Below are positions 42,156 to 57,435 of a stretch of 57,790 nt of DNA, in pieces. This DNA is from Bacteroidales bacterium (GTDB lineage Bacteria; Bacteroidota; Bacteroidia; Bacteroidales; UBA932), in NCBI GenBank assembly GCA_017429765.1, contig JAFROJ010000053.1, positions 1-57,790 of the forward strand, in the 5' to 3' direction. Made by a program: the position numbers and the translations under genes. Numbering within the stretch: position 1 is the stretch's first letter; each line of letters begins with the position of its first letter. Below the pieces are notes generated by a model. It was not told where the DNA came from. It did not search any database and saw only the letters and a list, made by a program, of their open reading frames with translations.

Positions 42156-42169
42156 CGGTGATGCAAAGT

Positions 42170-42736
42170 ATGAGCAACATATCAGTACCTAGCGTGGGTG
42201 AAGTGATCCGAGGGCGAATAGCCGAACTTGGGATCAGCCAGACAGAACTGGCTGCCCGGGTCGGCGAACACTTTCAGACCATTTCCGCCATCATTAACGG
42301 AAAGCGAGAAGCAACCATTTCACTTTCTGTCCGGATTGATGAGGCGTTGGATCTCCCCCTTGGGACAATCGCTTTGGCACAAACTAGATATCTGGTTTCG
42401 AAAGAAATCAGTGAAAAACAAACGGAGAGCATGAAAGAGAAACGGCATATTATCTTGGAGAAGATCAAGGCCAATGGTGGCTTTTGGTCTTACCAGGGTA
42501 TTCCAGAAAGTCTGGACGATGATGCTGTTATCGAAGCTGCTCTAGTTCATCTTGATCTGGAAGACCTCCCGCTTTTGTTTGGAATATGGAGTAAAGCCCA
42601 CATCAAGCGGGTCTGGAAAGAGCGTTTGGTCAGCCAAGGCAAGCGGATGAATGTCTTGAATTACATACTTGCAGTGAAACTGTTCGGAATCAACAACCCT
42701 GATAAATACATCTCTAGATATGCCCACGCTTATTGA
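42170..42736 (+). CDS. XRE/HigA-like antitoxin with DUF6922 C-terminus
   Basis: 188 residues from ATG 42170; ATG 42161 is possible but would be at the transcript edge. The N-terminal helix-turn-helix (SVGEVIRGRIAELGISQTEL, then AARVGEHFQTISAIINGKRE) is HigA-like. The C-terminal part (ILEKIKANGGFWSYQGIPES ... YILAVKLFGINNPDKYI) fits DUF6922, which partners nucleotidyltransferase toxins in Bacteroidetes. The toxin gene starts 17 bases before its stop. Antitoxin and autorepressor roles are inferred from architecture. Confidence 0.85.
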   Translation: MSNISVPSVGEVIRGRIAELGISQTELAARVGEHFQTISAIINGKREATISLSVRIDEALDLPLGTIALAQTRYLVSKEISEKQTESMKEKRHIILEKIKANGGFWSYQGIPESLDDDAVIEAALVHLDLEDLPLLFGIWSKAHIKRVWKERLVSQGKRMNVLNYILAVKLFGINNPDKYISRYAHAY

Positions 42737-43424
42737 CCTTCCTGAGATAATAGCAGCAGGACTGACAGAATCAACGAAAGAGGTATTCGCTGATGTTTCT
42801 CAATTGGACTGTATTAAGGATCTCTTCCTCTGTGGAGGGACAGGACAGTCCATTCAAATGAATCATCGCTTGAGTGAAGACTTGGATTTTGAGTTGATTG
42901 GCCTCCGGAAAGAGCGTCCACAACTCGATTTCGTAGCAATCCTCAGCGAACTGAAAGCCAAGTTCCCTGACGCCAGGGAAGAAATCCTGGGAGAAGATCA
43001 CCTTCAAGTATTCATTAACGAAGGTAAAGTCAAGCTGTCGTTTTTCCGTCCAGAAAACCCCGTCAAATCGATGAGTGTTGGACTTCAGTTCAACAACTTG
43101 AAGGCTCCCGTTTTACAAGAGTTGTTGGGGATGAAAGTGTTTGCCCTCTGCGTCAGGACAGTATTCCGGGACTACTATGATATTTACTGCCTGCTCGAGG
43201 GTGGATGCAAACTTGAAGAAGCCATCAGTTACGCCAGTTACCTATCCCGTCATAAGATTCGTTCCAAGGTAATGTACTCGCGCCTCCTTTCACCGCAATT
43301 GTTCCGGAGAGATAAGGAGTTTGATAGGATGTTTCCTAAATACGACGTTTCTGCCGAAGAGATTCGTGACAGGGTTAAAGTCGCTATCGAGGCCGAGAAT
43401 CTTAAGGGCAAGACTAAGGTATAG
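42720..43424 (+). CDS. AbiEii-type nucleotidyltransferase toxin
   Basis: 234 residues. The nucleotidyltransferase motif is CGGTGQS at 38-44 followed by the S52-E-D-L-D56 pair of catalytic acids. KVKLSFF and LLGMKVFALCVRTVFRDYYD match the AbiEii/AbiGii toxin family, which can modify tRNA or other RNAs and stop growth. It forms a unit with the preceding antitoxin (17-base overlap). AbiE systems act in abortive phage defence or in element maintenance. Directly after it lies a broken relaxase, so the pair may have arrived on a mobilizable element. Confidence 0.88.
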   Translation: MPTLIDLPEIIAAGLTESTKEVFADVSQLDCIKDLFLCGGTGQSIQMNHRLSEDLDFELIGLRKERPQLDFVAILSELKAKFPDAREEILGEDHLQVFINEGKVKLSFFRPENPVKSMSVGLQFNNLKAPVLQELLGMKVFALCVRTVFRDYYDIYCLLEGGCKLEEAISYASYLSRHKIRSKVMYSRLLSPQLFRRDKEFDRMFPKYDVSAEEIRDRVKVAIEAENLKGKTKV

Positions 43425-44236
43425 ACAGTACTTTATCCGGCATCCTTCACCTCCATCTCGACTGCAACCGAGTCGATATGGATAACTGCCTGAACAGCGA
43501 CCACCTGATCGGCATCCGCGCAAAGACGGCCGCCGAAGAGGTCAACCGCCTGCGCGGCTGGAAACGCACGGAAGAGAGGTTCGAAGAGAACAAGGCTCGC
43601 ATCAAAAAGGATTGTCTCGCGGTTCTGTCAGGAATGTCGGCCTTCTCCTGGGAGAAATATACCGCTGCGCTGGAAGCCAAAGGATACAAGGTCAAGCTGA
43701 AGATGGACGCTTCGGTAATGGTCCGTGGATACTCGATCCAAAGCGGCAACTCTGTCTATAAGTCCTCTGTTATCGGTCGCGAATTGACGCCCTCCCGGAT
43801 CCAGGAGACTTGGGAGAAGATGCGTCCGGAGAACAGATACGGACAGATGACCCCGGCGGAGCGCGTCGCATTTGCGCTATCCGAAGAAGGGAAGAATTAC
43901 CTTTTCCCCTGGGGTTTCACTATAGATGGGAAACGCTATGAGAAGATGGTTCCCGGAAGAGTTGCTCGGGTCTTCGATGAAGAGAGCAGATTGACAGAGC
44001 AATCCTATTCGCGGGAGGAGTGTAGCAGCATCTTTCGGACCGCCTTTCTTCTCTTCGCCGGTTATGTCGATGCCGCCACTACCTTCGCACAAAACTGCGG
44101 AGGCGGCGGATCCGCCCCCGACCAGAACTGGGGCCGCGACAAAAACGAGGACGACATCCTCTGGGCCCGCCGTTGCTTCCGCAAGGCGCGGGAGATGGTC
44201 ACTACTCCGGTGATAAGGCGGGGGATGAGGAGATGA
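43424..44236 (+). pseudogene. 5'-truncated MobB-type relaxase
   Basis: From ATG 43478 the frame gives 252 residues, but relaxase-like sequence already begins before it: GILHLHLDCNRVD is encoded just upstream, up to the toxin stop. The core of a relaxase catalytic domain (Tyr motif and first part of the His cluster) is missing. The remaining part has AKTAAEEVNRLRGW, then a helical C-terminus with FSWEKYTAALEAKGYKVKLK and RGYSIQSGNSVYKSSVIG, as in Bacteroides mobilization proteins. It cannot nick DNA as it stands. It is evidence that a mobilizable element once occupied this site. Confidence 0.7.
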
Positions 44237-44335: not shown

Positions 44336-44343
44336 TATCTTTG
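44336..44343 (+). promoter_or_regulatory. -7 box of the PIN/type I restriction locus
   Basis: TATCTTTG, an exact consensus match, ends 18 bases before the ATG at 44362. The same octamer precedes three other accessory genes in this region. The best -33 match (ATTG at 44308-44311) is four bases further than usual. Confidence 0.6.
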
Positions 44344-44361
44344 TGTATACAATATACTGTT

Positions 44362-46353
44362 ATGAAGAGTTTTCTAAAATCTTTCTATCTAAAGCAGGAT
44401 GGCGAGATGCAAACGCTCACTCGCAATGCCACCGCGGGCTTATTGCAGAAACTGGTTTATTTGAATAATGGGAGGATTAAGTTATTGCCATTATATGAGG
44501 AGTATAAAAAACAACTTGGCGCAGAATCTCTTGATTTCGAAGAGATAAAGGCTCTTCTGGATGAGATGGTAGATAAGAAGCTTATTCATCGCCATGACGA
44601 AAGCTTCTATCTGTCTACAAGTCGTATTCAAACTATTGACAAAACAAGAGAAGAGAGTCGCAAAAGAAAAGAGAGAGTAGTAGAAAACTACTTCTCTCAA
44701 CTGTACTCTAACACTCACGAGATATTAAATTGGCTTGATGATGTCCTTATTCGTTTCTTTGAAGGCTATTCTTCAGAATGGATTTCTGACCTTTATTACA
44801 AAAAAAACTATATAAGCCAAAGCAAAGAATCCTTACTAAATATGGTGAGGCAACGAACTTTAAAATGTAAAGATATTGATCATAGAGATCGAGGTCTTTT
44901 GCCTGAGAGGTTCGTTGATATGCTTCTAGCCTCTAACGACAGCGATGTAAACCAGTTGCTATGGGAATATGGCACCACGGCTTTTTCAGCTAAATTAATT
45001 ACTTCTAACCATGGAGCTAATCCTGTGGCACTGGACACTTTCAAGGATAGCGTTTGTTTATTGGACACTAATGTTTTAATGAATATTGGCCTTGAAGAAA
45101 GTAACTATTATAAAACATTATCATCGCTAGAAACAGTCTTTGATCGGCTTGGTATTAGTGTTAAGATTTTGCCTATTACGAGAGACGAGTATCTATATAC
45201 CATTCAAAATGTCAAGAATGATATTATAAAGCTAATATCAAGAGGATATAGCGATGAAGTACTTATAGCTTCTGGGGATCAGTACATACGAACAGCTATT
45301 CAGCGGAAATGCGAAACAGAGGAAGATTACGAGCGTTTTTTTGAGGACCTCTTAAAAGTGCCAGAGTGCTTTCATGAGAAATTGAGTATTACGTTGGAAG
45401 ATGACCCGGTTGTAATAGATTGCGTTGAGAAGTCTCTTTGCGATGAACAAAAAGTAGCCTATCTTGACAATTTGCATGGAATGATGCATAATGATAGAAA
45501 GAAGGCACAGCATTCTTTACAACACGATGTAGGACTTATTGCTGGTGCAGAACAGATGAGGTTGGGGAAAAAAGCTTTTATTCTATCGCAAGACAGTACA
45601 ATAGCTGCATATTCGAAACGCAAACCATTGGAACAAGGGCTAACTCTTTCTCTCCAACTAGAAACACTAATTAACGTATTGGCTCTAGATAATGGCGGTG
45701 TAGAGGTTGATCCTCAGAATTATATCCCGTTGTTTGCTCAGATGATTCGTCAAGGCTTAGAACCAGATTCTAAGTCATTCCAGCCTCAGGATTTAACAAG
45801 AATGAGTGAGATGGAACAAGAGATTTCGAGGTTGCCGGATTCGGATATTATTAAACTTGCTTCTAGTATCGCAGCAAAACGACAACAAGGAGAAAGCGAG
45901 GAGGCTATTAATTTAGCATTTAGGCGAGAACTTCAAGATGTTAAGCGAAGTATTGTGGACGATCTTGAAGAGACAAAGCGTAATGTGGATAAAGAGAAGC
46001 AAGAAAAAGAGCGGTTGAAAGGTCGGACGGAAAAAACTGAACGCGGATTGGAAATAGAGGTCAGAAGGAGAGTGAAAAAAGAAGTTAATAGTCATCTCTT
46101 ATATAGGGTCTTAACTCTTGTGTTTTTTGCCGGAATTATTCCCGGAATCTTTATCATACTGAACTTTATTAAGAATTGGGCGGTCCTCGATGAAACATGG
46201 AAAAATATACTAATGTCAGTGGGAGTTGAATTGATAGTTTTATCAATAACCTCTATCTTTATTAAGCCCTGTCAACTTATCAAAGATTATAAAAGAAGAT
46301 CACAAGAGATTGAAGAAAGGGTAAAAAAGGAGTTGTCGAAGTATGAATTATAG
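44362..46353 (+). CDS. Membrane-anchored PIN-domain protein of the restriction locus
   Basis: 663 residues from ATG 44362, 18 bases after a -7 box. Residues 1-90 look like a winged-helix domain. A PIN nuclease-like domain spans about 228-430: LLDTNVLMN at 233, TRDEYLY near 273, HDVGLIAGAEQ near 388 and LSQDST near 413 supply the expected acidic residues. A Glu/Lys-rich coiled coil at about 480-575 leads to two transmembrane helices (about 580-603 and 615-634) and a basic tail. PIN domains cleave RNA. The combination with a coiled coil and membrane anchor, directly before hsdM, is not one I know. The gene is AT-rich compared with hsdM. Confidence 0.75.
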   Translation: MKSFLKSFYLKQDGEMQTLTRNATAGLLQKLVYLNNGRIKLLPLYEEYKKQLGAESLDFEEIKALLDEMVDKKLIHRHDESFYLSTSRIQTIDKTREESRKRKERVVENYFSQLYSNTHEILNWLDDVLIRFFEGYSSEWISDLYYKKNYISQSKESLLNMVRQRTLKCKDIDHRDRGLLPERFVDMLLASNDSDVNQLLWEYGTTAFSAKLITSNHGANPVALDTFKDSVCLLDTNVLMNIGLEESNYYKTLSSLETVFDRLGISVKILPITRDEYLYTIQNVKNDIIKLISRGYSDEVLIASGDQYIRTAIQRKCETEEDYERFFEDLLKVPECFHEKLSITLEDDPVVIDCVEKSLCDEQKVAYLDNLHGMMHNDRKKAQHSLQHDVGLIAGAEQMRLGKKAFILSQDSTIAAYSKRKPLEQGLTLSLQLETLINVLALDNGGVEVDPQNYIPLFAQMIRQGLEPDSKSFQPQDLTRMSEMEQEISRLPDSDIIKLASSIAAKRQQGESEEAINLAFRRELQDVKRSIVDDLEETKRNVDKEKQEKERLKGRTEKTERGLEIEVRRRVKKEVNSHLLYRVLTLVFFAGIIPGIFIILNFIKNWAVLDETWKNILMSVGVELIVLSITSIFIKPCQLIKDYKRRSQEIEERVKKELSKYEL

Positions 46354-46364
46354 TGTTTGAACTT

Positions 46365-47930
46365 ATGGCCAAAAAACAACTCAAGACCAAGTCTATGGAG
46401 GAATCACTTTGGGAATCCTGCAACAAAATGCGCGGCTCCATCGAGCCCTCCGAATACAAGCACGTCGTCCTCAGCCTCATCTTCCTGAAGTACGCTTCCG
46501 ACCATTTCGAGAAGCGTCGGCAGGAGATTATTGCCGACGGCATGGAGGACTTCGTGGATATGGTCGAATTCTACGAGGCCAAGAACGTCTTCTATCTCCC
46601 TCCGGAGAGCCGCTGGTCGTTCATTATGGAGAACGCCAAGCAGAACGACATTGCCATCAAGATTGACAAGGCCCTCTCCGAGGTGGAACGCCAGAACAAA
46701 TCCCTCAAGGGAGCGCTCCCGAACAACTACTACTCCAACCTGGGCCTCGACATTACCAAGCTGGCTTCGCTCCTGGACGAGATCAACAAGATTGACACAC
46801 TCAAGGACGAAGAGAACGACCTCATCGGCCGAGTCTATGAATACTTCCTCTCTAAATTTGCTATTGCAGAAGGCAAGGGCAAGGGAGAATTCTATACCCC
46901 GAAGAGCATAGTCAACCTGATTGCCGAGATGATTCAGCCCTACGAAGGCAAAATATACGACCCCTGCTGCGGTTCCGGTGGTATGTTCGTCCAGAGTCTC
47001 AAGTTCGTCCAGAGCCACCACGGCAACAAGAAGAATGTTTCCGTCTATGGTCAGGAGTACACCAAGACCACTTACAAGTTAGCTAAGATGAACCTTGCCA
47101 TCCGTGGCATCTCTGCCAACCTGGGCGCTCAGGAAGCCGATACTTTCCACAACGACCAGCATAAGGGCCTCAAGGCTGATTTCATCATGGCCAATCCGCC
47201 CTTCAACCAGAAAGACTGGCGTGAGGAAAGCCAGCTGCGTAACGACCCTCGATGGGCCGGTTATGAGATTCCTCCGACCTCCAACGCCAACTATGCCTGG
47301 ATTCTGAATATGGTATCTAAGCTTTCCCAGAACGGCGTGGCCGGCTTCATCCTTGCCAACGGTGCCTTGAGCGCCGATGGTACCGAACTGGCTATCCGTC
47401 GAAAGCTCATCGAGGACAAACTGGTGGAAGCCATTGTCATTCTGCCCAGGAACCTCTTCTATAGCACCGATATTAGCGTGACTCTTTGGATTATCAATCA
47501 CAATAAGAAAGCCCACGTCGAGGTTAAGAATGGTGAAGAAATCCATTATCGCGACCGAGAGAATGAGATTTTGTTTATAGATCTCCGCCAATGGGGTGAA
47601 CCCTTCGAGAAAAAGTTCGTTCAACTCTCGGCAACGAATATTGCGGATGTTGCTAATGTCTATCACGAATGGCAGACTGAAGGTCACGACACATCAGTGA
47701 AAGGTGTTCCTGAATTCTGGCACTCTGCTGATTTGGAGGAAGTAGCAGCTAAGGGTTACTCATTAGTTCCTAGTAAATATGTTGAATTCGTCAACCGTGA
47801 TGAAGGTGTCGATTTTGACAGTAAAATGTCTGTTCTCCAGAAGGAAATGAAGTCAATTCTTTCCGACGAAGAAACTTCAAGGTGTGCTGTTAAGGCTCTG
47901 TTCAAGGAATTAGGATTCTCTCTTGATTAA
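46365..47930 (+). CDS. hsdM: Type I restriction DNA methyltransferase subunit HsdM
   Basis: 521 residues from ATG 46365; a GTG at 46353 overlapping the previous stop would add four. The N-terminal helical domain (SLWESCNKMRGSIEPSEYKH) is followed by the N6-adenine methyltransferase core: YTPKSIV, DPCCGSGG at 199-206 and NPPF at 277. It methylates adenine in the target set by HsdS, protecting host DNA. The upstream PIN gene ends 11 bases before. Codon use is GC-rich, unlike the flanking AT-rich genes. Confidence 0.96.
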   Translation: MAKKQLKTKSMEESLWESCNKMRGSIEPSEYKHVVLSLIFLKYASDHFEKRRQEIIADGMEDFVDMVEFYEAKNVFYLPPESRWSFIMENAKQNDIAIKIDKALSEVERQNKSLKGALPNNYYSNLGLDITKLASLLDEINKIDTLKDEENDLIGRVYEYFLSKFAIAEGKGKGEFYTPKSIVNLIAEMIQPYEGKIYDPCCGSGGMFVQSLKFVQSHHGNKKNVSVYGQEYTKTTYKLAKMNLAIRGISANLGAQEADTFHNDQHKGLKADFIMANPPFNQKDWREESQLRNDPRWAGYEIPPTSNANYAWILNMVSKLSQNGVAGFILANGALSADGTELAIRRKLIEDKLVEAIVILPRNLFYSTDISVTLWIINHNKKAHVEVKNGEEIHYRDRENEILFIDLRQWGEPFEKKFVQLSATNIADVANVYHEWQTEGHDTSVKGVPEFWHSADLEEVAAKGYSLVPSKYVEFVNRDEGVDFDSKMSVLQKEMKSILSDEETSRCAVKALFKELGFSLD

Positions 47931-47940
47931 ACACCAGACA

Positions 47941-49041
47941 ATGAACAGAGAACACTATCACAGATTAGGTGATTACATTCAGCTAGTGGATGTTCGTAAT
48001 CGAGAACTTACGATATCGAATTTGCTGGGGGTAAGCATTGCTAAGACGTTCATTCCTTCCATAGCCAATACAATCGGAACGGATATGTCCACGTATAAAA
48101 TCGTGGAGCCATACCAGTTTGCATACGGCCCGGTTACGTCACGTAACGGCGACAAGATTACTTTTGCCCTTTATAAAGGAGAGGAGAAGTGCATTGTATC
48201 TTCGGCATACATAACTTTTGAGATTATCGATAAAGAGAAGCTCGACCCTGATTATTTAATGATGTGGGCATTGCGCCCCGAATTCGATCGCTATGCTCGT
48301 TTTATGTCGAATGGAAGCGCACGTGAGATCTTCTCCTGGGATGATATGTGTGATGTTTATCTCCCTGTCCCTAAAATAGACGTACAGCGTCGCGTTGTTG
48401 CCGAGTATCAAGCAGTCGAGTCACGTATTGCCACCAATGAGCGCCTTATTGAGAAGCTGGAAGATATTACTCAAACAATTTACAAAAAGATGTTTGTCGA
48501 TGATATCGACCTGGAGTATCTACCTGACACTTGGCGTCTCTTGCCTATTGATGAGGTCCTATCATGTAAGTATGGAAAAGGGCTTTCTACAGAGAATGTA
48601 ACAGACCATGGTGTTTACCCAGTGTACGGGGCGAAAGGCGTCATCGGCTATTATTCGCAAAAAAATGTCGAAGATTATGTAACTCTTATAACGAGTAGAG
48701 GTAGCGGTAGTGGGGTTGTTGACAGGACTCATCATAAAGAGTCTTTTGTTACGAACAATTCTTTTACCGTAGTTGCAAATGATGGCTATTCTTATATGGC
48801 ATTACCTTTTGTGTTCAGTTTGTGTAAAAGTATTGATTTCGTATCGATTTGCACCGGTTCTGCTCAGCCCCAATTAACAAATGATTCAATTAGTTTGTTA
48901 AAAGTATTGGTCCCTCCCAAAGAACTGGTCGAGTTTTTTTGTTCTAAGACACAGCCGCTCTTCGATATGATTGAAACGCTGATTCGTGAGAATGAGTGTG
49001 AGTGTTCTCTTAAGGAATTATTGCTTTCAAAAATGTCATAA
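47941..49041 (+). CDS. hsdS: Type I restriction specificity subunit HsdS
   Basis: 366 residues from ATG 47941, 10 bases after hsdM. Two target-recognition domains are seen: TRD1 from about 10 to 150 (SAYITFEI, then SWDDMCDVYLPVP), the first spacer helix (VESRIATNERLIEKLEDITQ), TRD2 from about 195 (YGAKGVIGYYSQ, TSRGSGSG), and a final helix. It decides the bipartite DNA target. It is a full-length single copy, so no phase-variable partner gene is visible. It is notably AT-rich relative to hsdM and hsdR, as expected for a subunit that is exchanged separately. Confidence 0.94.
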   Translation: MNREHYHRLGDYIQLVDVRNRELTISNLLGVSIAKTFIPSIANTIGTDMSTYKIVEPYQFAYGPVTSRNGDKITFALYKGEEKCIVSSAYITFEIIDKEKLDPDYLMMWALRPEFDRYARFMSNGSAREIFSWDDMCDVYLPVPKIDVQRRVVAEYQAVESRIATNERLIEKLEDITQTIYKKMFVDDIDLEYLPDTWRLLPIDEVLSCKYGKGLSTENVTDHGVYPVYGAKGVIGYYSQKNVEDYVTLITSRGSGSGVVDRTHHKESFVTNNSFTVVANDGYSYMALPFVFSLCKSIDFVSICTGSAQPQLTNDSISLLKVLVPPKELVEFFCSKTQPLFDMIETLIRENECECSLKELLLSKMS

Positions 49042-49044
49042 AAA

Positions 49045-52000
49045 ATGGCAACTTTCACCGAACAGGCTCTCGAGCAGTCAATAATGACGCTCTTCGAGCA
49101 ACAGCAATACACTCACCTCAATGGTGAGACCATTGAGCGGGACACGCGAGAAGTCCTGCTCAAGGCGGACCTCCGTCATTTCCTTCGGAAGAAGTACCGC
49201 AAGGACGGAATTACCGAAGGAGAAATCGACCGCATCCTGCTCAAACTGGAGATGGTCGGAGGTGGACTCTATGAGGCCAACCGTTCGGTGATGAAGTGGG
49301 TTATGAACGGCTTCTCGCTACGCCGTGATGATACCACAAAGCCAAACCTCTATGTCTACCTGGTAGATTTTGATGATCCTCTAGCCAACGATTTCAAGAT
49401 TGTCAACCAGTTCGAGATCTCAGGCGAAGAGAATCGCCGGCCGGACGCCATCATCTTCATCAACGGTATACCGCTGGTCCTATTTGAGTTCAAGAGTGCA
49501 ATCCGTGAGGACGCCACCATCTATAACGCTTACGAGCAGATTACTGTTCGTTATCGTCGTGCAATTCCTGACATCTTCAAGTACAACGCCTTCGTGGTAA
49601 TCAGTGACGGTGTCAACAGCAAGTTTGGCTCTCTCTTCACTCCTTATGAATTTTTCTACGCCTGGCGTAAGGTTGAGCAGTCCGACAAGAGCGTTGACGG
49701 CATCAACTCCCTCCTCACGATGATTGAGGGCCTGTTTCGTCGTGACCGTCTCATAGAGGTGATTCATAACTACATCTTCTTCCCGGACACAACTACCAAG
49801 GAGAAGAAGATTGTTTGCCGTTATCCGCAGTACTTCGCTGCGAATGCGCTATATCAATCAGTCATAAACCACAGCCACCTCAACCCGGACGGCGATGGTA
49901 AAGGTGGTACGTACTTCGGGGCAACTGGCTGCGGCAAGAGTTTCACAATGCTCTTCCTCTGCCGCCTCTTAATGAAGAGCAAGTTGCTTTCCAGTCCCAC
50001 CATCCTCCTCATAACGGACCGTACCGACCTGGATGACCAACTTAGCGAACAGCTCCTCACAGCCACCGACTTCATCGGTGACAGTATGATAAAGCAGGTG
50101 GAAAGCCGTGCCCTGCTGGGAGAATACCTTCAGGGACGCACCAGTGGCGGCGTCTTTCTTACCACCATTCAGAAATTTACGGAGGATACCGGCCTTCTTT
50201 CCGACCGTACCAATATAATCTGCATCAGCGATGAGGCTCACCGTTCTCAGACCGGCTTGCAGCAGGAGATTACCATAACGGATAAGGGCGTAAAGCGTCA
50301 CTATGGCTTCGCCAAGTATCTTCGTGATTCTCTACCGGGTGCTACCTACGTCGGCTTCACCGGTACACCAATAGACGCCACTATCGAAGTTTTTGGCCCT
50401 ATCGTGGACAAATACACCATGGCCGAGGCTGTGGCCGACGAAATTACCCGCAGAATCGTTTACGAAGGACGTGCTTCTAAGGTTATCATCGAGAGCGATG
50501 TGGTGAAACAGATCGAGGCCTACTACTCCAAGTGTGCCGAAGAGGGCGCGTCAGAGTACCAGATTGAGGAGAGCAAGCGTGCGATGGCCTCTATGGAAGT
50601 CCTCCTTTCTGACGAAAAACTCCTCAAGCGCATTGCTGAAGACTTTGTCTGGCACTATGAGAAACGTGTGGAGGAAGGCTCTACAGTTGAGGGCAAGGCA
50701 ATGTTCGTTTGCCCGTCCAGAAAGATTGCCTGGCAAATCTACAAGGACATCATAGAACTCCGTCCTGATTGGGGCACCAAGCGCATAAACGTCAACTCGG
50801 ACGAATTAACGTCTGAAGAGCGTCGCACCATTAAGCCCATCGAGATGGTCAAGATGGTCATCACCCGTGACAAAGACGACCCTGCAGAACTCTATAACAT
50901 GCTGGGCACCGACGAATACCGGAAAGACCTGGCTGACCAGTATAAGGAGGTCCGCTCCAACTTCAAGATTGCCATTGTTGTGGATATGTGGATCACCGGC
51001 TTTGATGTGCCGGCACTCGACACCATGTATGTTTTCAAGCCCCTGCAGAAGCATACGCTCATCCAGACAATCTCTCGCGTAAACCGCGTTTACCCTGGCA
51101 AGGAAAAGGGCCTCGTGGTGGACTACCTGGGCATCAAGAACAACATGAACAAGGCCCTCCGCCAGTATGGTACCGGCGGCGATGATAATCCGCCAATCGA
51201 TACCACGGACACCTCGCTGCGTGTCCTGCGCGATGAGTTGGACATCCTGCGCCGCGTCTTCCACGGCTTCGACTATAGCGCATTCACAACCGGCACTCCG
51301 CTGGAGCAGTTGGATTGCCTTAACCGTGCTGCCGACTTTGTCATCAAGACCAAAGAGAGCGAGTCGTTCTTCATGCTTCACTCCAAGAAGATGAACGATG
51401 CATACAACCTCTGTTCCTGCTCCGACAAGATTACGAAGGAAGAGCATGATGACATCCAGTTCTTCCGTGCTGTTCGTAGCGTCGTTTATAAGCTCACTAA
51501 AGGCGAGGCTCCGGATGCCGCTCAGATGAACCTCAAGGTGTCCCAGATGATTAAGGAAGCCTTCCTGTCACAGGAAGTTGAGGAGATTACCAAGATTGGC
51601 GTTGACGACCGCTTTGAGATTGACGTCCTTTCCGAGCAGTACCTTGAGCGACTGAAACGCATTCCTTTCCAGAACACCAAGCTCAAACTCATCGAGAAAC
51701 TCCTTCGTCAAGTCATCGACAACCTCAAGAAGGTAAACAAGATGAAGGGCATTGACTTCACCAAGCGCTTGGACGACATCGTGCGCCAATACAATGACCG
51801 CAGCGACAACTCCACCATTGCCAGCGAAGTTATCGACGATGTAGTCAATCAGATGGAATCTCTCCTCCACGAAGTCAACGGAGAAAAGTATGCCGCCGAG
51901 AAGATGGGCATCTCCTACGAAGAGAAAGCCTTCTACGACATCCTCAAGGCTGTTCGTGACAAATACGGCTTCCCCTACGAAGAAAATCGCCTCATCGACT

Positions 52001-52266
52001 TGGCCAAGCAAATCAAGCTCATCATCGACGACAAATCCCGTTACGTCGACTGGGCCACCCGCACCGACCGCAAGGCAGAGCTGAAGATGGACATCGTTAT
52101 CACCCTGGCCCGCAACAAATACCCGCCCTTCACCAAGGACGAAGTCTTCAAGGAGATCCTCGAGCAAGCCGAGAACTTCAAGAAGAACCGTCTGGTCGAT
52201 GGCTACCAGATTCGTGAACCCGAATACCACATGGTCGCCGAGCCAGAAGGGCCCAAATTATATTAA
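49045..52266 (+). CDS. hsdR: Type I restriction endonuclease subunit HsdR
   Basis: 1073 residues. The N-terminal PD-(D/E)xK nuclease has D at RRPDAIIF and E148-x-K150. The SF2 translocase has Walker A GCGKS at 295-299, DEAH at 396-399, GFTGTP and QTISRVNR. A C-terminal coupling domain follows. It moves DNA and cuts when HsdS meets an unmethylated target. It starts three bases after hsdS, so the three subunits are one operon. The OLD-type gene follows 29 bases later and may share the transcript. Confidence 0.97.
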   Translation: MATFTEQALEQSIMTLFEQQQYTHLNGETIERDTREVLLKADLRHFLRKKYRKDGITEGEIDRILLKLEMVGGGLYEANRSVMKWVMNGFSLRRDDTTKPNLYVYLVDFDDPLANDFKIVNQFEISGEENRRPDAIIFINGIPLVLFEFKSAIREDATIYNAYEQITVRYRRAIPDIFKYNAFVVISDGVNSKFGSLFTPYEFFYAWRKVEQSDKSVDGINSLLTMIEGLFRRDRLIEVIHNYIFFPDTTTKEKKIVCRYPQYFAANALYQSVINHSHLNPDGDGKGGTYFGATGCGKSFTMLFLCRLLMKSKLLSSPTILLITDRTDLDDQLSEQLLTATDFIGDSMIKQVESRALLGEYLQGRTSGGVFLTTIQKFTEDTGLLSDRTNIICISDEAHRSQTGLQQEITITDKGVKRHYGFAKYLRDSLPGATYVGFTGTPIDATIEVFGPIVDKYTMAEAVADEITRRIVYEGRASKVIIESDVVKQIEAYYSKCAEEGASEYQIEESKRAMASMEVLLSDEKLLKRIAEDFVWHYEKRVEEGSTVEGKAMFVCPSRKIAWQIYKDIIELRPDWGTKRINVNSDELTSEERRTIKPIEMVKMVITRDKDDPAELYNMLGTDEYRKDLADQYKEVRSNFKIAIVVDMWITGFDVPALDTMYVFKPLQKHTLIQTISRVNRVYPGKEKGLVVDYLGIKNNMNKALRQYGTGGDDNPPIDTTDTSLRVLRDELDILRRVFHGFDYSAFTTGTPLEQLDCLNRAADFVIKTKESESFFMLHSKKMNDAYNLCSCSDKITKEEHDDIQFFRAVRSVVYKLTKGEAPDAAQMNLKVSQMIKEAFLSQEVEEITKIGVDDRFEIDVLSEQYLERLKRIPFQNTKLKLIEKLLRQVIDNLKKVNKMKGIDFTKRLDDIVRQYNDRSDNSTIASEVIDDVVNQMESLLHEVNGEKYAAEKMGISYEEKAFYDILKAVRDKYGFPYEENRLIDLAKQIKLIIDDKSRYVDWATRTDRKAELKMDIVITLARNKYPPFTKDEVFKEILEQAENFKKNRLVDGYQIREPEYHMVAEPEGPKLY

Positions 52267-52295: not shown

Positions 52296-54227
52296 ATGGG
52301 AGTATATATAGAAAACATTATATTTCACAATCGCGCGCCGTTTGAGTCTCTGAATCTTGTCTTTAAGGACAAAAGTATTTCGGTTTTAACAGCATTTAAT
52401 GGGAAAGGGAAAACAACTATTCTCTCATATATCGTTGATGCGTGGATTGAGATTACAAAAGGTGCTTATGAGCAGTCTTATGCTGGGAAGGCGAATAGCT
52501 ATTATCGAGTATCTAGCCCCTTATATGATCTGGTAACAGGGGAGACATCTCTAGTTTATATTAGGTTTAAGACAGATCAGGGTTTTTGTGATTATCTTGA
52601 TTTGCGTAATGGCTGTGACCAAGAAACATATGAACAGGTTATTTCTCTGCCTCAATCTATTCCTTTTGGAGAGATAAAGACCGCCGCATCCAAAAAGGAG
52701 GCATTCAAGTATATCTCTCGATCCTTTAAGGATAAAGATACTGTGAAAAGAGTGTTTGATAACAGCATTGTCACTTTTTTCCCCGCATATAGATATGAAG
52801 TTCCCAATTACTTAAATGAGCTGTATCAAGAAGGATTGACCTTTAAGAAAGATTTGGTCTATAATGGATATTTGACCAATCCGCTTGAAGTCAGATCCGA
52901 TATGCGGGACATTGCAAACTGGCTGATGGATGTAGTTTTAGATTGGAATAATTATAGAAATAACATCATACTCCCAGATGGCCAGAATGCAGACGTTACT
53001 AGAGAGAAACAGCTTTGGCTTAACGCAAAAGCTGTTTTGGAGCAGGCATTAATATCTAAGTTCCCACAGAAGAATGTTCGATTTGGTATAGGTAAACGTT
53101 CTAATCCCGGCTCTAGATTATCGATAATGCAATACGATGTGGAAAATCCCAATGTCGCACATAGCTATTGCCCTTCTGTCTTTAATCTTTCATCCGGAGA
53201 ACTTGCTATCCTGTCTGTATTTTGTGAATTATTACGTCAGGGAGATAATATTTTTGGACCTATTCCACTACAACAATTCCAAGGTATAGTCTTGATAGAC
53301 GAAGTGGATAAGCATCTTCACATCAAACTCCAAAAGGAAGTTTTACCGCGTTTGTTTGAGTTGTTCCCGAATATTCAGTTTATTGTATCTAGTCATTCTC
53401 CTTTCCTTAATATGGGGCTGGCTGAGACGAGCTCTTCTCGTGCAATTGTTTATGATCTAGACAATAATGGTATTATTTCTTCTCCTACAACAAATTCAGT
53501 ATATGAAGAAGCTTATAATACCTTCGTGGGAGAAAAGAATGAATACGCAAAAAGGTTCGCTGAAGCGAATGAAATTATAGCGAAAACGACAAAGCCAGTT
53601 ATTATTACAGAAGGAAAGACAGACATTCTAATTCTCCAAAAAGCCGCATTAGAACTAGGAATAAATCTTGATGTTGAATGGAAAGAGTTTGGAGGAGATA
53701 CTCAATCTAAAATGGTATGCGAGAATGTCGCAAAATTTACGCCGGTTCGCAAAGTGATTGCAATTTATGATCATGATTCAGATAGAATTATCAAAGAGTA
53801 TCCTGATCGTTTTAATGTAGTCGCCGGGAATGTCTATTCATTCTGTATCCCCATTCCTCAGTTTCGCCTTGATTCCCAACAAAAGAAGATTTCGTTGGAA
53901 TACTATTTCTCGGATGATGAGATTCGTTCGAAAATGGATGACGGTCGAAGTTTATATTTTGGGACGGATTTTACTGAATCCGGAAGATGTATATTTGATA
54001 AAGACTTGTTACTCGTTAATCAAGGAGACAGGGGGAAGGATAAGATTGTCGAATCCACAAATGGGCAAAAAGTGGTTGGGCCAGACGAATCCATTAACCT
54101 CTTGGCAACAAAGAACTCATTTGCCGAGGCGGTCTCTCAAGACAAAATCCCAATATCTATAGAAAGTTGGGAGAACTTTAATTGCATTTTTGATATTATA
54201 AATGAGATTCTGCTCTTACCGTCTTAA
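52296..54227 (+). CDS. OLD-family ATPase with C-terminal TOPRIM nuclease domain
   Basis: 643 residues. The ABC/SMC-type ATPase has Walker A in FNGKGKTT (N35-T40), the signature LSSGE at 298-302 and Walker B LIDEVDKH (D335, E336), with SSHSP as the switch. The TOPRIM domain shows ITEGKTD with E439, and YDHDSD with D492/D494. This is the OLD layout, whose members are DNA nucleases in phage defence (P2 Old, GajA). No UvrD-like GajB partner is present; instead a small membrane protein follows 15 bases later. It is AT-rich. Link to the restriction genes is by position. Confidence 0.9.
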   Translation: MGVYIENIIFHNRAPFESLNLVFKDKSISVLTAFNGKGKTTILSYIVDAWIEITKGAYEQSYAGKANSYYRVSSPLYDLVTGETSLVYIRFKTDQGFCDYLDLRNGCDQETYEQVISLPQSIPFGEIKTAASKKEAFKYISRSFKDKDTVKRVFDNSIVTFFPAYRYEVPNYLNELYQEGLTFKKDLVYNGYLTNPLEVRSDMRDIANWLMDVVLDWNNYRNNIILPDGQNADVTREKQLWLNAKAVLEQALISKFPQKNVRFGIGKRSNPGSRLSIMQYDVENPNVAHSYCPSVFNLSSGELAILSVFCELLRQGDNIFGPIPLQQFQGIVLIDEVDKHLHIKLQKEVLPRLFELFPNIQFIVSSHSPFLNMGLAETSSSRAIVYDLDNNGIISSPTTNSVYEEAYNTFVGEKNEYAKRFAEANEIIAKTTKPVIITEGKTDILILQKAALELGINLDVEWKEFGGDTQSKMVCENVAKFTPVRKVIAIYDHDSDRIIKEYPDRFNVVAGNVYSFCIPIPQFRLDSQQKKISLEYYFSDDEIRSKMDDGRSLYFGTDFTESGRCIFDKDLLLVNQGDRGKDKIVESTNGQKVVGPDESINLLATKNSFAEAVSQDKIPISIESWENFNCIFDIINEILLLPS

Positions 54228-54242
54228 AACATGCTTTGATAT

Positions 54243-54917
54243 ATGTCAAAGATTCGTGTATTCCTAAAAAACAATTGGCAAGAGGCTGGTAAATGGCTAA
54301 TTGCTGCTGTATTTGGTTTAATTTTAGGGAAAGCATGTGATAGAATATGGCCTGAGGACCCCGTGGTAGTAAAAGAGGTCACTGACACCATAAAAGTCAT
54401 TCATGCAATCTCTCCTTTGCCTGATGAGACGGATAGCTTAATGAAAGAACAGATTCAACAACAGCTATTAAACATCAAGCTATTGAACGAATATGATTCT
54501 TATATAAAGCAGAAGAAAGCTTCTGTTTCGGAAGTGCCATGCAAACTTGTTTTTGGGAATCCTTATCCAAACAGTAAAGGGTATATCCAAAAGAGTTCAT
54601 CGGCCTTGTGTAAAATATCATTGAAACAAGATAAAGAATATATCGAAATCACATTTGAATACCTATATCCTGACTATGCTGAACTAGTGAATACCCTTGG
54701 GATCAAGATGTGTAAGGTTGACAAGGTCAATGGAACAAGATCTTATGTCATGGATCAGAATTATGAACCTCAGAAGGGAGATAGGATGCTAATAAAGATC
54801 ATTAACAGCTATGGAGGAGCTGGTGACTATGTTTTAGATGCGGGTTTTATTCTGAAGGAGGACAAGCTAAAAGAATATCCCGCATATTATTCTCGTTCTT
54901 TCACACTACGGGAATAG
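54243..54917 (+). CDS. One-helix membrane protein paired with the OLD-type nuclease
   Basis: 224 residues. One transmembrane helix (about 16-34, WLIAAVFGLILG), then a short helical stretch (LMKEQIQQQLLNIKLLNEYD) and a beta-rich C-terminal domain (about 85-224) with no motif I recognise. The gene begins 15 bases after the OLD-type stop and shares its low GC, so the pair is probably one functional unit. A strong terminator-like hairpin follows at 54998. Function unknown; a membrane tether or effector for the OLD protein is a possibility. Confidence 0.75.
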   Translation: MSKIRVFLKNNWQEAGKWLIAAVFGLILGKACDRIWPEDPVVVKEVTDTIKVIHAISPLPDETDSLMKEQIQQQLLNIKLLNEYDSYIKQKKASVSEVPCKLVFGNPYPNSKGYIQKSSSALCKISLKQDKEYIEITFEYLYPDYAELVNTLGIKMCKVDKVNGTRSYVMDQNYEPQKGDRMLIKIINSYGGAGDYVLDAGFILKEDKLKEYPAYYSRSFTLRE

Positions 54918-55037: not shown

Positions 55038-55198
55038 CAAGGTGCCCCGGGCGGGGGCTGAAAATATGAAAACAAGAGCGCTGGATAACCCCCACAAAAC
55101 CAATAACTTACGCACCTAATGAAAACAATATCAATCACTTACAAAGTCTGAACGCGTTTTCCATCGTTTTCCGTAAAAATCAGGTGTTTTCGATTATT

Positions 55199-55224
55199 GG
55201 GACAAAAACTGATATTTTTGTCCC
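55199..55224. promoter_or_regulatory. Perfect palindrome, candidate operator of the integrase gene
   Basis: GGGACAAAAA, six bases CTGATA, then TTTTTGTCCC: 10-bp perfect arms. It ends six bases before the -33 TTTG at 55231. Its position suits a regulator binding site or a recombinase arm site. Confidence 0.65.
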
Positions 55225-55230
55225 AAGTTT

Positions 55231-56673: not shown

Positions 56674-57435
56674 ATGATAGATGCGGAAGCAGAAAACATA
56701 ATCGACGCCATCAACCGGCTCTCGCAAGCTGCCGATAAGATACTCGACACCGAAGGTCTCCAGCCGGAAGAGGCCTTCTCCGGTGTCAGGTACTTCCTGG
56801 GCCGATACTGCGACTCTCCGGACGGAATTACCGTCATACTTGACACGGACACCCTCCAATCCTGCAGGCGGCGCATCATATCCGGCTCTGGCGATTACTA
56901 TTCCGCCATCGAATTCCTGGACATAGAACTCGACCCCATCCAAAACCTCGCGGAATACCTCGACGCCGAGGACCGCGGCAACGAAGCCGAACTCCTATGG
57001 TCCGTTGTGGACTTTGTGGACGAAATCCGGCAATGGACCAACCGTCAGTCAGACATCGTCCCGGAGCAGCCGTTTACCAGCTGCCGGCGTCCGCATCAGT
57101 CCGGCTCCAGCAACTTCACCCAGGACCAGTTCCTCGCCCTCTTTGACAACAGAAACTGCAAGCCCCACAAGGCCCGCCTCCTGCTCAACCATATTCTTGA
57201 GGTCTCCGGCGAGAAGAGCGTCCACACCTATTACGGTGCTCTCGCCACGGAGTGCAGAGGTTGGTTCAAGACCAACGAGCAGGACTTCGCCAGCCTCCTC
57301 CGCAACTTCCTCTCCGTCGCCGGCCTTGATCCGGCCCTGGCCGACAACGTAAGGCAGACCAAACTCGGCAAGAAAGTCATCGCCCGCGCCCAGGAGAAAA
57401 AGGCTGAAATCGCAGGCACACGGGCGAAAAACTAA
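56674..57435 (+). CDS. Integrase-associated protein of unknown function (DUF6043-like)
   Basis: 253 residues, soluble. The N-terminal half is acidic and helical (MIDAEAENIIDAINRLSQAA). The C-terminal part (LFDNRNCKPHKARLLLNHIL, then TYYGALATECRGWF) resembles a domain often found just behind integrases in Bacteroides mobilizable elements; I recall DUF6043 but am unsure of the number. It has its own -7 box and is followed by a terminator. Role in element control is inferred only from place. Confidence 0.65.
   Translation: MIDAEAENIIDAINRLSQAADKILDTEGLQPEEAFSGVRYFLGRYCDSPDGITVILDTDTLQSCRRRIISGSGDYYSAIEFLDIELDPIQNLAEYLDAEDRGNEAELLWSVVDFVDEIRQWTNRQSDIVPEQPFTSCRRPHQSGSSNFTQDQFLALFDNRNCKPHKARLLLNHILEVSGEKSVHTYYGALATECRGWFKTNEQDFASLLRNFLSVAGLDPALADNVRQTKLGKKVIARAQEKKAEIAGTRAKN

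Follow-up and report, generated by a model that had tools for sequence, protein, structure and literature searches.

The DNA analysed here, referred to as the window, is a stretch of 57,790 nucleotides on contig JAFROJ010000053.1 (assembly GCA_017429765.1) from a Bacteroidales bacterium, and all coordinates are window positions. The gene of interest encodes a protein of 663 amino acids (aa) that combines a PIN-type nuclease domain with a probable membrane anchor, and it is the first of six genes on the same strand. It is followed by the hsdM, hsdS and hsdR genes of a type I restriction system, a gene for an OLD/PtuA-like ATPase and a gene for a small anchored protein. The gene, the parts of its product and the remainder of the unit are as follows.

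44362..46353, + strand: gene for the PIN-type nuclease, probably membrane-anchored, 663 aa (open reading frame and homologues)
44362..44679, + strand: N-terminal region, possible winged helix, about residues 1–106 (weak DUF5457 match in a homologue, L013a)
45043..45681, + strand: PIN-type domain, about residues 228–440, with an insertion at about 286–378 and the acids D235, E276, D389 and D411 (invariance and profile comparison)
45919..46107, + strand: charged, probably helical stretch, residues 520–582 (composition and heptad check)
46108..46263, + strand: two hydrophobic helices, residues 583–601 and 616–634 (hydropathy)
46365..47930, + strand: hsdM (Pfam family match)
47923..49041, + strand: hsdS (Pfam family match)
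49045..52266, + strand: hsdR (Pfam family match)
52296..54227, + strand: OLD/PtuA-like AAA ATPase (library matches; Toprim part read by eye)
54243..54917, + strand: small protein with an N-terminal hydrophobic stretch (by eye) and no family in Pfam, PADLOC and NCBIfam scans

The original prediction, made from the sequence alone, had proposed a 663-residue protein at the head of a type I operon, with a step of 11 bases into hsdM. Translation of 44362–46353 is free of stops over 663 aa, and the gene order and coordinates agree with both the placement and the spacing (the last base of the PIN open reading frame, ORF, is 46353, and hsdM begins with an ATG at 46365). An alternative hsdM start, a GTG at 46353, lies earlier and overlaps the end of the PIN gene.

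The PIN superfamily is recognised by three to four conserved acidic residues in the order D, E, D, D. The acidic motifs on which the prediction of a PIN domain had been based are present in the window protein as LDTN (D235), DE (D275-E276), HD (D389) and QD (D411). In an alignment with six homologues, D235, E276, D389 and D411 were invariant in all seven sequences, in the PIN order and in the contexts LDTN, EY, HD and a strand-like stretch ending in D, and were thus retained across identities of 15–63%. The alignment, for which the member from genome G972 was trimmed 20 residues before its contig end, contained only 19 invariant columns including these four. A fifth invariant acidic residue, D347, lies inside the insertion. 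Comparison of the PIN region with a profile of nine PIN genes from related genomes gave P = 3.8e-5 over 52 columns spanning D235–E276, while the controls gave 0.15 (reversed alignment) and 0.21–0.58 (four other regions of the family). The nine genes represent six of nine places from one PIN search and three of four from another, with the family's own places excluded; before removal of one spurious frame the set gave P 9.4e-5. The first comparison, made with four PIN sequences, covered 12 columns only (P 0.0024; reversed 0.094).

The Pfam run proposed with the original prediction returned no PIN match for the window protein itself. The most divergent homologue, L013b, matched Pfam PIN_3 (E value, E, 2.9e-4) and PIN (E 5.1e-4), both under the curated cut-offs, over a stretch starting at its LDTN, and was the sole PIN_3 match in its genome at E 1e-4. 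For the window protein there was no usable Pfam match (weak coil and membrane matches, best E 0.025) and no match in PADLOC, NCBIfam or PHROGs, and PADLOC-DB 2.0.0 gave no family for any of the seven members (E 0.01; partly E 1e-5). Searches of PDB sequences found no PIN protein, the best match being a synthetic PPR protein at E 0.012, and further searches gave nothing better than E 0.43. At the level of sequence, the assignment of a PIN-type domain holds, with significant profile similarity confined to the motif I–II half.

Outside the PIN domain, a DUF5457 match in L013a (E 3.2e-5, just under the cut-off; 0.068 and 0.49 in two other members) hints weakly at the winged-helix-like N-terminus that had been predicted. 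The predicted long coiled coil corresponds to some 60 highly charged residues (56% K/R/E/D) in which at most half of the heptad positions are hydrophobic; a firm coiled coil was therefore rejected and charged helix is the safer label. The two predicted C-terminal membrane helices are clear as a hydrophobic pair, found in all six members with a complete C-terminus, and this pair is a probable membrane anchor. One homologue, L003, has an additional weak hydrophobic peak at residues 18–39.

The six homologues range in identity from 63% to 15%. L001 (63%), from a Prevotellaceae metagenome-assembled genome, was the only relative recovered in a search of genome contigs with short peptide patterns, which detects close relatives only. 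L016 (33%), on an IMG/VR contig, was the one relative from six IMG/VR scans. Genome G635 (locus L013) has two copies in one region, L013a (32%) and the more divergent L013b (15%). The homologue in G367 is 28% identical, and that in G972 (23%) is in two pieces at two contig ends, probably one gene broken over them. No match was found for five members (the window protein, L013a, L013b, L003 and L014) in plasmids or for three (the window protein, L013b and L016) in GenBank phages. Beyond the window's own genome the distribution is patchy, with no homologue in 100 relatives, one in 394 genomes drawn from the phylum and one full-length in 392 drawn from the order. Further draws gave none in 248 genomes of the family, one besides G367 in 293 of the class of G367 and none full-length in 286 of the window's own class; the draws overlap and many of the genomes are incomplete. 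Short or stop-containing profile matches in G554, G736, G703, G1281 and G1344 were not counted as homologues. The match in G1281 (G1281:C75:2357–2743), a short PIN-region match with three internal stops, is perhaps a decayed relative.

The gene directly downstream of the PIN gene differs between the six loci, window included: hsdM in one, a single-chain restriction enzyme in one, a PD-T4-7-like gene in one and no recognised defence gene in three. In L001, the PD-T4-7-like gene lies 33 bases downstream (PADLOC E 4.7e-39) and PDC-M13 candidate genes about 6 kb upstream. PD-T4-7 is described as a toxin-antitoxin-like, abortive-infection defence system (PMC9519451). In L016, a gene for a 1617-aa single-chain restriction-methylation enzyme lies 125 bases downstream (PADLOC E 0), and the pair (L016:9962–16995) sits between phage tail/lysis-type and host-type genes (by eye), at an apparent prophage edge. 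In G635, the PIN gene is directly followed by a 121-aa ORF with no Pfam match, and a CAP12/PDC-S35 TIR gene, the second PIN copy, an Mrr-type nuclease, a dGTPase and a RhuM gene are found within 10 kb; the two PIN-membrane genes there, 18% identical, flank the TIR gene within about 7 kb (L013:9364–16541). The PIN gene in G367 is followed by a 113-aa ORF without a family, then by a HATPase gene and a receiver-like gene; a DNA-methylase fragment and a DUF5131 gene lie some 4–5 kb further on. Two-component-like pairs linked to restriction systems have been described (PMC8011034). In G972, a gene for an 8xMP-type membrane protein is beside the C-terminal piece; the N-terminal piece, on the other contig, has MNT and HEPN genes about 5 kb upstream.

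A recognised or candidate defence gene was therefore nearby in all six loci, among neighbours chosen for scanning, which is the co-occurrence with defence genes that the original prediction had named as a check. Adjacency to hsdM, the other part of that check, was confined to the window (one of six loci). As a control, 28 ORFs picked from the left part of the window yielded two PADLOC families with one member each (one genome only). No neighbour was common to the loci, with no cross-locus pair among 168 ORFs within 5 kb in seven pieces, and hence no common antitoxin-like partner was seen.

It had also been suggested that the PIN protein could serve the type I system in a way similar to the anticodon nuclease PrrC. 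In the window, though in none of the other homologous loci, the putative RNase gene is linked to hsd genes, as is that of PrrC in the locus of the type Ic enzyme PrrI; PrrC is described as being silenced by PrrI and freed by the phage protein Stp (PMC3710099). By analogy, the PIN protein would be silenced by a co-expressed restriction enzyme and freed once that enzyme is inactivated by an anti-restriction protein from a phage. In keeping with this, the PIN gene leads the hsdMSR run with a gap of 11 bases to hsdM, and 125 bases separate the 33% homologue from the single-chain enzyme gene. These two partners are, however, of different types, and the 63% homologue adjoins a PD-T4-7-like gene. PADLOC scans of 12 neighbour ORFs in L001 found no match to any restriction model, and the one ORF that hit the mad2 methylase model is read by Pfam as a methyltransferase of other types with a GNAT domain. 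PrrC itself is made up of an ATPase part and a HEPN nuclease (PMC3710099). The window protein had no ATPase or HEPN Pfam match at E up to 1, and five of the six homologous loci show no hsdMSR set in the fetched DNA.

To place this against type I systems more widely, hsdR was matched at E ≤1e-100 in 45 of 247 genomes of the order, the window's own included, and 18 of the first 19 places after the window's own were compared, a second place in G534 being left out. hsdM was present in 11 of the 18 pieces, three of which (L052, L059 and L060) include less than 2 kb upstream of it, and was not seen in the other seven, most of them cut by contig ends. No family member was seen in these fetched pieces (0 of 273 ORFs matched the family profiles), and the PIN gene was rejected as a standard part of this type I family. 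With varied downstream genes in six loci and no copy seen in the DNA fetched from 18 type I loci, the proposed tie to type I restriction is not supported, and a role as guard of one such system is weakened. The guarding of restriction in general is possible, since two of the six loci place the PIN gene just upstream of a restriction enzyme gene, of two different types; overall we regard a PrrC-like guard as unlikely. The gene instead appears to travel independently between defence loci, because the 63% homologue is found among different genes, L013a and L016 share 74% identity without sharing neighbours, and no copy was seen in the pieces of the 18 type I loci.

Accessory genes around hsdM, hsdS and hsdR in the related type I loci (L048–L065) vary by genome and include Fic-like, schlafen-like and AbiEii-like genes (by eye). 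One of the 18 loci (L049:4003–5961) carries a 47% homologue of the OLD/PtuA-like ATPase between hsdS and hsdR, and for this reason the ATPase found behind hsdR in the window may be a recurrent accessory. To the left of the PIN gene, a helix-turn-helix (HTH) gene and an AbiEii-like gene in tandem (42158–43424) are likely a toxin-antitoxin pair. They are followed by a fragment of an MbpB-like mobilization protein (43478–44236), matched by NF041420 with E 1.5e-10, well short of that model's cut-off. A tyrosine recombinase (integrase) is also present near the six-gene unit, which likely sits in an island with the HTH/AbiEii pair on its left side. Two candidate expression signals border the unit.

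44336..44343, + strand: TATCTTTG, putative Bacteroidota-type -7 promoter element (consensus TAnnTTTG)
55197..55226, + strand: terminator-like hairpin of 12 pairs followed by a T-run, after the sixth gene (hairpin scan)

TATCTTTG begins 26 bases 5' of the PIN gene ATG and is identified as a -7 type word by TAnnTTTG, which we take to be the consensus. The same word is found directly before the HTH gene (42148), the integrase (55255) and an ORF at 56674 (56659). Between 44336 and 55255 there is no further copy, and five other TANNTTTG words occur on the + strand. With 28 copies of TANNTTTG in the window and an expectation of 15.7, little weight can be placed on any single copy. No -7 type word was found within 100 bases upstream in four homologues (L001, L016, L013a and L004), leaving the window copy alone among five members. 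The hairpin scan gave 14 hairpins against 11.7 in shuffles, no excess, with three weaker ones inside the unit on the + strand. TATCTTTG may be the promoter of the unit and the 55197–55226 hairpin its terminator.

VapC toxins are small, consist of a single domain and are paired with an antitoxin. The PIN acidic residues are shared with VapC and other free PIN toxins, but the window protein is 663 aa long, has hydrophobic C-terminal helices and has no partner common to the loci within 5 kb; a locus-specific antitoxin is possible. DS-3, a validated one-protein PIN defence system described as lacking a cognate antitoxin and needing its catalytic residues (DefensePredictor, PMC13092281), is alike in being a single protein with a PIN RNase and without a cognate antitoxin, a likeness drawn from its description. 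The window protein differs from it in having the PIN domain mid-protein and two C-terminal hydrophobic helices. A bacterial system with a constant TPR-GreA/B-C-PIN core (PMC8195603) and a Bacteroidetes defence operon with a VapC-like PIN nuclease as presumed effector (PMC10924106) have also been described.

SNIPE, a validated membrane-bound phage-defence nuclease, is described as having a GIY-YIG nuclease, DUF4041 and an N-terminal anchor (PMC13190303). The window protein shares with it a probable membrane anchor and a nuclease-type domain, and could by analogy cut incoming phage nucleic acid during injection at the membrane, leaving the cell unharmed. However, no GIY-YIG or DUF4041 Pfam match was found at E up to 1, the nuclease is PIN-type and the hydrophobic pair is C-terminal. 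In addition, PIN domains mostly cut RNA. We consider entry-site cleavage of this kind quite unlikely.

The reading we favour, with a probability of roughly 55%, is that the protein is a membrane-tethered PIN-family ribonuclease that acts as a self-contained phage-defence effector and is carried between defence loci. It draws on the PIN-type motifs, the C-terminal hydrophobic pair, the operon position, the nearby defence genes and the patchy distribution, and from these we infer a PIN fold, RNase activity, membrane insertion, autoinhibition, a trigger and a role in defence. The PIN domain would lie in the cytosol next to the membrane, where the N-terminal half (a possible winged helix and a helical region) and the charged helix would hold it in check. 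Infection would be signalled, perhaps by a nucleic acid or protein of the phage reaching the membrane, and the released domain would then cleave RNA (host tRNA or mRNA, or phage transcripts), bringing phage production to a halt. The gene would be transferred between defence loci and, in the window, expressed with type I restriction as a second line.

Several points weigh against the favoured reading. While the four acids and the motif I–II half uphold the predicted PIN domain, the motif III–IV half reached only P 0.052 against the PIN profile; about 95 residues separate the two halves, and under a forced global alignment it was the insertion that became aligned in place of motifs III–IV. Six of the seven members have no Pfam PIN match and that of L013b is itself under the cut-offs. 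L013b is matched over positions 4–576 by a family profile built without it, but the 42 bits of this match include a composition bias of 31 bits, and a genome search with the same profile did not list L013b, so its link to the family is to be read with care. The evidence for membrane insertion is hydropathy, which is not proof. In three of the six loci the gene immediately downstream is not a recognised defence gene, neighbours were selected for scanning, several matches are to candidate (PDC) models only, and six loci are a small sample. An inactive or house-keeping PIN protein carried in the island as an ordinary passenger would fit these three loci and the lack of a common neighbour. The retention of all four acids down to 15% identity and the presence of defence genes near the PIN gene at each locus examined argue against it, and we find a passenger improbable.

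Most of what is known of PIN ribonucleases concerns small free toxins. The family described here is without a name in the PADLOC, Pfam and NCBIfam models used, and no published description of this layout was found at title and abstract level, with subscription journals mostly outside the coverage. We suggest, tentatively and with low expectation, that it may represent a new class of PIN ribonuclease, tethered to the membrane, which is placed ahead of unrelated restriction enzymes and other defence genes as a portable second-line effector and is unleashed at the membrane once the first line is breached. A family that fixes a PIN domain to the membrane, and whose companions vary from type I or single-chain restriction genes to PD-T4-7-like, TIR and kinase/receiver-like ones, would be a portable effector of this kind.
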